Source: Pseudomonas sp. IAC-BECa141 (GTDB taxonomy: Bacteria > Pseudomonadota > Gammaproteobacteria > Pseudomonadales > Pseudomonadaceae). Taken from it: DNA of 64,000 bases. The stretch is from positions 2,666,001-2,730,000 of the forward strand of contig NZ_CP065410.1 in assembly GCF_020544405.1 (NCBI RefSeq), given 5' to 3'. The notes beneath the pieces are model-generated. The model was not told where the DNA came from. It did no database searches and worked only from the letters and a program-made list of their open reading frames with translations. Each line of letters opens with the position of its first letter. Position 1 is the stretch's first letter. A program made the translations under genes and the position numbers. Below are positions 383-39,655 of the stretch, in pieces.

Positions 383-766
383 TTACTCCGTTGGCACAAC
401 GTTATCCAACACCTGATTCACCGCCAGTTCCGCAAGCATCACGATCTGCGCGATGCCCTGTGCGGTCTTGCGGTGGGGGCCTTCGAGGAGGTCGACGAAG
501 TTGTTGAGCATGACGTTGGCCGAACCCAGCGTTTCGACGGCGTCGGCGAGCAGGGATTCGTTGTTGCTGGCCGGGTTGGCCTGGTAGAGGCGGTTGGGGT
601 AGTAGGGCGCGGCCATCATTTGGGCTGATATCGGGCCTAGGTGATAGTCGAGGGCGCGGTTGGCGGCTTCGTTGAATTTCTTGGAGTCAGGGCATTCGTA
701 GGGGGAAGTCGGGTCGGTGATGCTGGCCGGTTCGGTGACCGGAGGATTTGGCGTTACTTTAAACAT
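383..766 (-). CDS. DUF6124 family protein, copy 1
   Basis: A 127-residue soluble protein starting MFKVTPNPPVTEP, with the family pattern: proline-rich N-terminus, 'TSPYE' and 'DSKKFNEAANRALDYHL' in the middle, and a helical C-terminus (AQIVMLAELAVNQVLDNV). It is clearly paralogous to the gene at 38935-39294. The ATG at 766 was preferred over one at 781 because it aligns with the start of the paralogue (MIKPTPNPP). The family is common in Pseudomonas, often in several copies, and has no known function that I can name. A conserved structured element lies directly upstream (795-1115). Confidence 0.8.
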   Translation of the reverse strand: MFKVTPNPPVTEPASITDPTSPYECPDSKKFNEAANRALDYHLGPISAQMMAAPYYPNRLYQANPASNNESLLADAVETLGSANVMLNNFVDLLEGPHRKTAQGIAQIVMLAELAVNQVLDNVVPTE

Positions 767-794
767 GGTGATGTGCCTCATTGAGGATGCAACC

Positions 795-1115
795 GTCTCG
801 CTGCTAAACGGAAGGTGGCAGCTGTGCGCAAGTTAGCAGACCGGTCATCACCAAACCCGGCGCACCCGAAGGTGCCATGCGCACAGCCACCGCAAAATGC
901 AGGCGAAAACCTGACAAGGTGAGATGTGCAACCGTGGTAGATGAGCCGGGCTGCTAAACCCGATCACTGCGAATCAGTGACCCGATCCAAGTTACCGGCC
1001 GACCCCAAGGCGCACAAGCCGGCGGATTCTGGCGTAGCCGTAGGCTCTGGCGCAAGGATTTGTGGGCAATTGCGCGTAACTCCAGGTGTCTTTAAACACA
1101 CGCATCGAAACGTGT
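795..1115 (-). promoter_or_regulatory. Candidate structured leader RNA upstream of DUF6124 gene, copy 1
   Basis: The region upstream of the DUF6124 gene resembles the region upstream of its paralogue (39331-39655). Read on the minus strand it can form: a 5-bp hairpin closed by a C(UUCG)G tetraloop (862-875); a 14-bp stem with a 3-nt bulge (815-830 with 878-891); a 6-bp hairpin (964-980); and a pairing of GTTAGCAG (832-839) with either of two CTGCTAAAC copies (801-809 or 951-959). Stems at several of these positions are preserved in copy 2 by paired base changes. The more distal part (about 1016-1058) is conserved in sequence. I cannot assign it to a known RNA family. Confidence 0.65.
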
Positions 1116-27475: not shown

Positions 27476-27580
27476 CGTCTTCTCGAAAGGATCTTCGCAG
27501 AAGAGCATGCAGGAGAAGGCATCGCGCACACGCCGACACCGGCCCATGCCCGCCCACCGCAGGAGTTTGCCAAAAGCATT

Positions 27581-27760
27581 TCAGGCCGGTCTCCGGGCTC
27601 GCGCGTCTGGACGCTTTCACCTTCCCATGGCCGTCTGGCCACAGTGGTGTGTCGAAAGCATCACGCGCCTACCGTTGCGGGGGCAGCACCGGACTTGTTC
27701 GAAAAGAACGTACCGGTTTCCCGTTTCACCCCATGCACGGCGGCATGGGACACCTGAAAC
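27581..27760 (-). ncRNA. Cobalamin riboswitch
   Basis: On the minus strand, upstream of the BtuB-like gene, the conserved blocks appear in order: CAGGTG(T)CCC near 27756, GGGTGAAACGGGAA, TCCGGTGCTGCCCCCGCAAC with GGTA, GCCA near the B12-box position, GGGAAGG, GCGCGAGCCCGGAGACCGG and CCT at about 27581. These are the hallmarks of the Rfam cobalamin riboswitch. About 100 bases separate it from the start codon, room for an expression platform. When B12 binds, expression of the operon should fall. Confidence 0.92.
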
Positions 27761-27967
27761 AGGGCGGCATCTGAACATTCGGGTGGGCGTGCGTCAACCT
27801 GGACGGTCGATGGATGACGTTGAAGGCGGTTTTGCAGGCTTGATCCGATTCATACGAAATCCAGCAACAGTGTTTGTCCAACCCGCCGATATTTCCTCGC
27901 CACCCCAACCCTTAGCATCGTCTCCAACCCGTGAACAAACACGGTCCTCAACGAGACGGTGAACATC

Positions 27968-38934: not shown

Positions 38935-39294
38935 TTACGCGGCCTCGACGTGATCCAGCGCCTGATTCACCGCCAGCTCGGCAATCATCACGACCTGCGC
39001 AATACCGATCGCCATCTTGCGATGGGACGGATCGAGCGTTGCCGCGAAATTGCTCAGCATCTCACTGGCCGCCCCAAGGTTTTCGCTGGCGTTGGCCAGC
39101 AAGCATTCGGTGTTGTACTTCGGATTGGCCAGGTACATCCGCTCGGGTTCGTTGCAGGACGACATGATCCCGGCGGCGGGGCAGAGGTAGTGATCCAGCG
39201 CGCGCTCTGCGGCGTCGTGGAGTTTTTTGGAGTTGGGGGATTCGTAGGGAGAGGTGGTGTCGGTTTCGGGTGGGTTGGGTGTTGGTTTAATCAT
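38935..39294 (-). CDS. DUF6124 family protein, copy 2
   Basis: A 119-residue paralogue of the protein at 383-766: MIKPTPNPPETDTTSPYES, then 'SKKLHDAAERALDHYLCPA' and 'GIAQVVMIAELAVNQALDHV'. The C-terminal 25 residues are nearly the same in both copies, while the middle varies. ATG 39294 follows GGAG. Like copy 1 it carries a long structured upstream region. No function is known to me. Confidence 0.8.
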   Translation of the reverse strand: MIKPTPNPPETDTTSPYESPNSKKLHDAAERALDHYLCPAAGIMSSCNEPERMYLANPKYNTECLLANASENLGAASEMLSNFAATLDPSHRKMAIGIAQVVMIAELAVNQALDHVEAA

Positions 39295-39330
39295 GATGTA
39301 TCTCCTGGAAAGCAATTTAGGAGCCATCAC

Positions 39331-39655
39331 CCTTCGCTACCAAACGTGAGGTGGTGGCCATGCTCAGGTTGGTAGACCGGTCCAGGAACCCGGCGCTTCC
39401 GAAGAAGCCCTGCGCACGGCCACCATAAAAAAGCAGAGACGAGAACGATCCCTGCAAAGAGGTGGCGCTATGCGCCTGGAAATACCGGGCTACCAAACCC
39501 GATCACTGTTTTTCAGTGACCCCGGAACGATAAAAGCCGCACCCCAGACGCACAAGCCGGCGGATTCTGGCGTAGTCGTAGGCAATGACGCAAGGCGTTG
39601 TAGCCTCGAGGAAGTTACGGCGGGTTGCTTTAAACGAACCTGTTTAAGCGCTCAA
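39331..39655 (-). promoter_or_regulatory. Candidate structured leader RNA upstream of DUF6124 gene, copy 2
   Basis: Counterpart of the element at 795-1115. Minus-strand features: hairpin GCTTC-TTCG-GAAGC (39395-39408), where copy 1 has GCACC-TTCG-GGTGC; a 16-position stem with one mismatch and one G-U pair (39353-39368 with 39409-39424); hairpin TCACTG/CAGTGA with a different 5-nt loop (39503-39519); and GTTGGTAG (39368-39375), complementary to CTACCAAAC at both 39337-39345 and 39490-39498. The GGCGGATTCTGGCGTAG block near 39557-39573 is shared with copy 1. The stems survive sequence divergence, which favours RNA function. Confidence 0.65.

Follow-up and report, generated by a model that had tools for sequence, protein, structure and literature searches.

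The RNA element that precedes the first DUF6124 gene in the window, by which we mean the whole 64,000-nucleotide stretch of Pseudomonas sp. IAC-BECa141 DNA analyzed here, is a C4 antisense RNA, and we consider it highly probable that this element belongs to a self-contained antisense operon of the C4 type in which DUF6124 is the regulated gene. The Rfam model for C4 antisense RNA (RF01695) matched positions 811-897 of the minus strand over its full length (model positions 1-87 of 87) with a score of 72.9 bits (E 2.7e-12, cut-off 45), and a second match of 76.6 bits lies before the other DUF6124 gene of the window. Upstream of the first C4, positions 943-994 of the minus strand matched the Rfam c4-a1b1 target motif (RF03163) with 28.8 bits and an E-value of 2.8e-5, a score that falls under the gathering score of 46.7 for that family. 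Using the nomenclature of the phage P1 record, in which a' denotes the linker and b' the loop of hairpin 3, we assigned the following features to the two copies.

1012..1017, minus strand: putative -35 box TTGTGC, from the sequence and a consensus pattern across loci
989..994, minus strand: putative -10 box TAACTT, after a 17-bp spacer, on the same basis
943..994, minus strand: c4-a1b1 target motif, comprising a hairpin plus the a1 loop
951..957, minus strand: a1 target TTAGCAG, predicted from the sequence to pair with a'
811..897, minus strand: C4 antisense RNA, copy 1
862..875, minus strand: C4 hairpin 2 with a UUCG tetraloop, from the Rfam alignment and covariation
846..853, minus strand: b' element UGGUGAUG, loop of C4 hairpin 3, an 8-nt complement of 773-766 in the start-codon region
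833..839, minus strand: a' element CUGCUAA, the C4 linker, exact complement of a1 and a2
801..807, minus strand: a2 target TTAGCAG, 3 nt past the C4 match, from the sequence
766..773, minus strand: b2 target CATCACCA, in the stretch from the Shine-Dalgarno GAGG (779-776) to the first base of the start codon
383..766, minus strand: DUF6124 gene, copy 1, 127 aa, PF19619 at 59.2 bits
39347..39430, minus strand: C4 antisense RNA, copy 2, with a' CUACCAA at 39375-39369
39490..39496, minus strand: a1 target TTGGTAG, copy 2 (locus L012), from the sequence
39337..39343, minus strand: a2 target TTGGTAG, copy 2, from the sequence
39303..39309, minus strand: b2 target TCCAGGA, copy 2, at the Shine-Dalgarno site, from the sequence
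38935..39294, minus strand: DUF6124 gene, copy 2, 119 aa, PF19619 at 62.2 bits

The start codon of copy 1 was set at 766 by comparison with relatives, and an in-frame ATG is also present at 781. Both genes exceed the gathering score of 27 bits for DUF6124 (PF19619), in agreement with the preliminary description, which had placed both RNA copies before DUF6124 genes.

That description had proposed a single cis-acting RNA of a new type, about 300 nt long and spanning 795..1115, that serves the DUF6124 family. Minus-strand RNA that is conserved and covaries does precede DUF6124, but the reading as a single long RNA of a new type is not supported: the element is instead a compound of a promoter-like stretch, a c4-a1b1-type hairpin, C4 and two further target sites. 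The interval given omits one of these, the essential b2 (773-766) at the ribosome-binding site. The individual structures that had been reported all find a place in this arrangement. For the hairpin GCACC-UUCG-GGUGC, the reported position (875-862 of the minus strand) is exact; it is hairpin 2 of the C4 match, and in copy 2 it reads GCUUC-UUCG-GAAGC, with two base pairs altered on both sides. The stem reported as 14-16 bp corresponds to the 17-bp stem P1 of C4 (892-876 with 832-816), and the 6-bp hairpin with a changed loop corresponds to the a1-side hairpin GUCACUG/CAGUGAU (981-975 with 969-963), whose loop is AUUCG in copy 1 and AAAAA in copy 2. The choice of the minus strand as the RNA strand was also correct, as both Rfam matches lie there and our own Pseudomonas C4 model (R1) scored 84.8 bits at copy 1 and was silent on the opposite strand. 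R1 was made from 72 of 92 C4 sequences, among them loci of this genome and the window's copy, so a match to the window follows from the way R1 was built. A new RNA class was ruled out, the element being RF01695.

The covariation that had been proposed from two copies also held in a larger alignment of 72 C4 sequences (65 distinct), which comprised all 32 C4s of this genome and 40 of 60 from other Pseudomonas. Those 60 were the highest-scoring C4s, one per genome, and the 60-sequence sample therefore leans towards the consensus. Across the 27 Rfam C4 pairs, 98.4% of cells were paired, 20 pairs showed changes on both sides, and none of 500 shuffles reached any of the five measures used; sliding the structure along the alignment dropped pairing to 32-42%. 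The GG that opens stem P1 is invariant in the 72 sequences, and the CCACC end is invariant or nearly so. In copy 1 this GG is preceded by GC, where the usual bases are AU. Based on phage P1 and PMC5320573, from which the ends were inferred, the processed C4 of copy 1 is expected at about 891-814.

A strongly conserved, covarying leader directly before a gene would also fit a new cis-acting leader for DUF6124, riboswitch-like or protein-binding, whose stems sense and control the gene. We regard such a leader as highly improbable, because Rfam scores C4 highly and no riboswitch at this place, because the segments that vary find their complements beyond the structure itself, for which a ligand sensor has no need, and because C4 also stands before genes of other families. 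A riboswitch at copy 1 was itself ruled out, as Rfam gives no such match there; elsewhere in the window, at 27567-27772 of the minus strand, we observed a Cobalamin riboswitch (RF00174, 113.4 bits).

Beyond the hairpins, telling covariation exists between the antisense segments and their targets on either side. The a' linker reads CUGCUAA in copy 1 and CUACCAA in copy 2, and each matches its own a1 and a2, which means that three segments change together between the copies. Similarly, b' of copy 2 (TCCTGGA) complements TCCAGGA at the Shine-Dalgarno site; the b1 match of copy 1 is broken up. We extended this comparison to the 32 C4 matches that score above the cut-off in the single-contig, 6.22-Mb genome to which the window belongs. 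With a test for an exact 7-nt complement of the linker that allowed a register tolerance of 3 nt, 27 loci carried the a' complement on both sides of C4, four on one side and one on neither. These 27 two-sided loci contain 17 different a' 7-mers. In the genome, six loci share CUACCAA. When linkers were compared between loci, two-sided matches were found for 43 of 992 ordered pairs and for two of the 950 in which the 7-mers differ, and scrambled linkers gave 0.08 two-sided loci of 32 on average and never more than 2.

The b' loop was compared with its targets as well. Against its own ribosome-binding region, the mean longest run of complementarity was 9.10 with G-U pairs and 6.71 without, compared with 5.80 and 4.04 against foreign regions. 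The own-target mean exceeded all 20,000 permutations (highest 7.00 with G-U, 4.90 without), which take paralogues as exchangeable, an assumption that is not quite true. This test covered 31 of the 32 loci, L007 being left out with a start codon assigned too far away, and the best runs were not always on the Shine-Dalgarno core. Single elements found their own target, ties counted, in 20 of 32 loci for the loop and 21 of 32 for the linker. With both elements combined, the own target ranked first, alone or in a tie, in 26 of 32 loci and alone in 22, for which the permuted control gave a mean of 1.21 and a highest value of 7; the remaining six antisense segments slightly favored a foreign target. 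Duplex energies of whole segments ranked the own target first in 3, 3, 3 and 15 of 32 loci in four comparisons, but they are a poor test because the letters of the C4 stems dominate, and the anchored tests were used instead.

These results bear on how separate the units would be. The 27 two-sided loci form 351 pairs, of which 20 have the 7-mer in common and 139 differ at four or more positions, and a 4-nt difference is reported to keep phages P1 and P7 apart (PMC5320573). Therefore, judged by their letters, many pairs of units, though not all, are likely orthogonal. Orthogonality among the units is imperfect, as the six segments that score a foreign target slightly higher and the shared 7-mers show.

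We also searched for sequences that could drive such a unit. In this genome, 23 of 30 loci (two of the 32 were dropped for lack of an anchor) carry the pattern TTG, a 17-nt spacer and TAnnnT at one fixed position ahead of the a1 hairpin, compared with a mean of 0.36 and a maximum of 3 in mononucleotide shuffles. This fixed position suggests a putative sigma-70-type promoter, from which transcripts would start near the a1 hairpin. One transcript would run from just before the a1 hairpin through a1, C4, a2, b2 and the gene, and RNase P would cut C4 out of this transcript, by analogy with phage P1. The a' linker of the freed C4 would then pair with a2, and with a1, of the DUF6124 mRNA and thereby confer specificity, and the b' hairpin loop would pair with b2 at the ribosome-binding site, which would block translation of DUF6124. 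Since loci differ in the letters of a' and b', each with matching targets, most of the 32 units would repress mainly themselves.

The claim that the RNA serves the DUF6124 family applies to most but not all of these units. The genes behind the 32 C4s encode DUF6124 in 24 cases, DUF3077 in two, a Bro-N antirepressor-like protein in one (locus L003, 44.8 bits, 'anti-repressor Ant' in PHROGs) and other small ORFs in five, for which no family exceeded its cut-off. Conversely, DUF6124 has 27 matches in the genome, three of which lack a C4. The c4-a1b1 motif gave 28 matches at E <= 0.001, with nine above the cut-off of that family. We also observed a further, degenerate C4 of 32 bits at locus L036 (1596-1688, minus strand) that adjoins an a1b1 match. 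The DUF6124 frame is unbroken at 19 of the 24 C4 loci and broken at five (L005, L020, L023, L027 and L030), which may reflect decay, phase variation or assembly error. Just past the start, L005, L020 and L030 have five consecutive C, and the intact L021 has six. A one-base insertion in a DUF3077 pseudogene has been reported for an evolved strain of P. putida (PMC9630843).

We next considered the surroundings of copy 1 and its mobility. Using the RidA-like neighbor gene as an anchor, we compared 14 of 20 loci, the window's own included and six matches of 33-64 nt left out. Only the window's own locus has a C4 within the fetched stretch, which indicates that the unit is accessory. In genome G016, about 1.3 kb separate the promoter/a1 region from the RidA-side segment, and the stretch ends at that point. 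Positions 305-1677 of the window are shared with P. sputi (L184). The C4 units behave as accessory cassettes and also occur in predicted viral contigs. Separately, the intergenic region at about 1650-1890 of the window contains repeated, partly inverted elements around GTTCCCACGC...GCGTGGGAA. These repeats are possibly, we assume, of the REP type.

The patchy presence of C4 at RidA-like genes (one of 14 loci, the window's own), the degenerate C4 at L036 and the broken frames at five of the 24 C4-DUF6124 loci could together describe decaying prophage remains that have no present function. Decay would erode the antisense-target matching, the frames and the stems, yet the matching persists across many different 7-mers, the frame is intact in 19 of 24 copies and the C4 stems covary, and this upkeep argues against decay, which we consider very unlikely.

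Copies of C4 are widespread in the genus. Among 199 Pseudomonas genomes, the window's included and up to 20 copies counted in each, 184 carry C4, and in 39 genomes that were searched more deeply, 35 do, with a median of 13 copies, a maximum of 42 and 20 or more in 16 genomes. Across these 39 genomes, the per-genome counts of C4 and DUF6124 (totals 648 and 447) correlate, with a Spearman coefficient of 0.85. Outside the genus C4 is rarer, being found in 19 of 275 other genomes of a class sample and 6 of 36 others of an order sample, which overlap by two genomes; the bearers mostly have 1-6 copies and one has 10. The genomes G441 (10 copies) and G487 (6 copies) indicate that smaller expansions exist elsewhere. 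In a fixed register, the 7-mer complement flanks C4 on both sides at 83 of 92 loci (the 32 of the window's genome plus 60 from elsewhere in Pseudomonas), and 30 different 7-mers occur at this register. For 20 C4 loci from 16 genomes outside the genus, an uncontrolled count with somewhat wider windows and a tolerance of 4 nt gave 15 loci matched on both sides and five on one side. Most of these 20 C4s precede small ORFs, and two of the genes behind them by eye resemble antirepressor or Rha-type genes. In other Pseudomonas (loci L043-L100), many C4 units precede a protein of about 52 or about 89 aa, and one representative of each, when scanned, gave no Pfam family.

The association also holds when it is approached from the gene. 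C4 lies within 120 nt upstream of DUF6124 in 78 of 80 loci in genome contigs (the best 80 of at least 505 relatives) and in 69 of 80 in predicted viral contigs (the best 80 of 94), which may hold bacterial DNA at their edges. In the remaining two genome loci and in eight viral loci, C4 lies 532-566 nt upstream, and in the two examples that we read (L113 and L130), another DUF6124-type ORF sits between the distant C4 and the gene. Three viral loci are without C4, and two of these begin at a contig end. Matching of a' on the DUF6124 side took 81 of 83 C4 matches from genome contigs and 82 of 107 from viral contigs, leaving out weaker matches of 55.5 bits or less, mostly a second C4-like match further upstream, and minus-strand echoes. 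A two-sided 7-mer complement was found for 65 of 67 distinct C4s in genome contigs, with two matched on one side, and for 59 of 63 in viral contigs, with four unmatched. Each set contains nine different 7-mers, several of which are common to viral and bacterial sequences. At the viral loci L113, L130, L148 and L151, we noted by eye a tail-assembly-like ORF within about 1 kb after the unit. A phage collection gave one DUF6124 match, phage DVM-2008 carries a C4-DUF6124 unit near prtR, and plasmids searched for DUF6124 gave no match.

The occurrence of DUF6124-C4 units in predicted viral contigs, some beside a tail-type ORF, and the a' 7-mers common to viral contigs and bacterial genomes are also compatible with C4s that act mainly in trans against incoming phage C4 operons, as an antisense RNA bank in which superinfection immunity has become host defense and the adjacent gene is a bystander or reporter. 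The C4 of phages P1 and P7 confers phage immunity (PMC12197685, PMC5320573), and such a defense is one of two roles that the authors of the Acinetobacter baumannii study proposed for C4-like RNAs (PMC5320573). We nevertheless judge this role unlikely as the main one, because complementarity between the antisense segments and the gene just behind them is far above chance, which makes the neighboring gene the likely selected target, and because most of the DUF6124 frames behind C4 are intact.

For the two DUF6124 proteins of the window, searches of NCBIfam, PHROGs and PADLOC gave no match at E <= 1, and the sequence search of the PDB likewise gave none at that threshold. An AlphaFold model of DUF6124 (mean pLDDT 79.7, pTM 0.53) was disordered at the N-terminus, with a helical hairpin modeled confidently at the C-terminus (69-91/96-122). 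A search with this fold gave no significant match in the PDB (best E 0.86) or among viral models (best E 0.47), so that the function of DUF6124 is not inferable from its fold. One gene of this genome (G000:3917072-3917257, locus L035) exceeds the cut-offs of both DUF6124 and DUF3077, and the proteins of L053 and L059 match DUF3077 below the cut-off. These shared profile matches hint that DUF6124 and DUF3077 may be related, for which a profile comparison gave no confirmation: with alignments of 2 and 5 sequences only, it detected no relation between DUF6124 and DUF3077 or other C4-linked small proteins.

The units look derived from the C4-antirepressor type of phage immunity switch. A more far-reaching scenario, which we consider improbable but worth stating, is that Pseudomonas maintains a bank of dozens of near-orthogonal, antisense-locked small genes, in which an incoming phage could soak up the matching C4 with its own C4-type RNA or targets and so set free a small helical protein able to block either the phage or the cell. 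If true, this bank would be an RNA-addressed phage sensor array made from a copied phage immunity switch with re-lettered a' and b' segments. Apart from that scenario, two separate matched elements make the likely targets of these C4s readable from sequence, namely the gene behind each C4, and the units form a naturally occurring collection with which to ask how many antisense pairs can operate orthogonally in a single cell. They also open a route to the function of DUF6124 and DUF3077, because loss of C4 or a broken a' would free the protein.

The arrangement closely follows that of phage P1, whose record lists the promoter, a1, b1, C4, a2, b2, icd and ant1 in this order; up to the regulated gene the layout here is the same, with a putative promoter. 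P1 has TTGACAG at both a1 and a2, complementary to CTGTCAA within its C4 linker, and the window's elements correspond by position. The b2 of P1 complements TCACTAAC in the loop of hairpin 3 and lies just before icd, and b2 of the window is also at the ribosome-binding site; b1 of P1 has no exact match to P1 C4. Consistent with this likeness, our Pseudomonas model R1 found the C4 of phage P1 with 55.6 bits. A C4 operon of the P1 type involves processing by RNase P to an RNA of about 77 nt. In c4-icd-ant of P1, icd and ant are regulated, and DUF6124 takes that place in the window; DUF6124 and P1 Icd share no similarity of note (BLASTP E 0.07). In type I toxin-antitoxin systems, an antisense RNA of the same locus keeps a small protein off. 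C4 differs from these systems in its sense orientation inside the same presumed transcript. IsrK of the Salmonella prophage Gifsy-1 is tied to an antirepressor. IsrK and Sar of phage P22 are small RNAs of phages or prophages, which we liken to C4 by description only, and Sar represses antirepressor synthesis (PMC12197685).

Neither the RNA family nor a large C4-like set in one genome is new. In phage P1, C4 is freed from its transcript by RNase P (PMC5320573). A C4 motif was predicted in Pseudomonadales earlier (Weinberg 2010, PMC2864571, as cited in PMC5320573), and the chromosomes of many bacteria are predicted to encode C4-like RNAs, those of A. baumannii having been shown to be expressed (PMC5320573). 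The 'Group 1' C4-like RNAs of A. baumannii are 21 similar sRNAs with a variable a' region and signs of processing at a GG site of the RNase P type (PMC5320573). In the open-access papers searched, supplementary files being outside the search, we found no description of a C4 before DUF6124, and we likewise did not find the link to DUF6124/DUF3077 or units that each carry their own matched targets, which we take to be the new elements of this work. Compared by description, A. baumannii Group 1 resembles the present case in having many C4-like RNAs per genome with variable a' (PMC5320573). Their targets were left open in that account, as phage or bacterial RNAs, whereas here the likely target is the gene behind each C4. 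Unlike the C4 of phage P1, the Pseudomonas C4s occur as dozens of copies in many chromosomes, with differing a' 7-mers.
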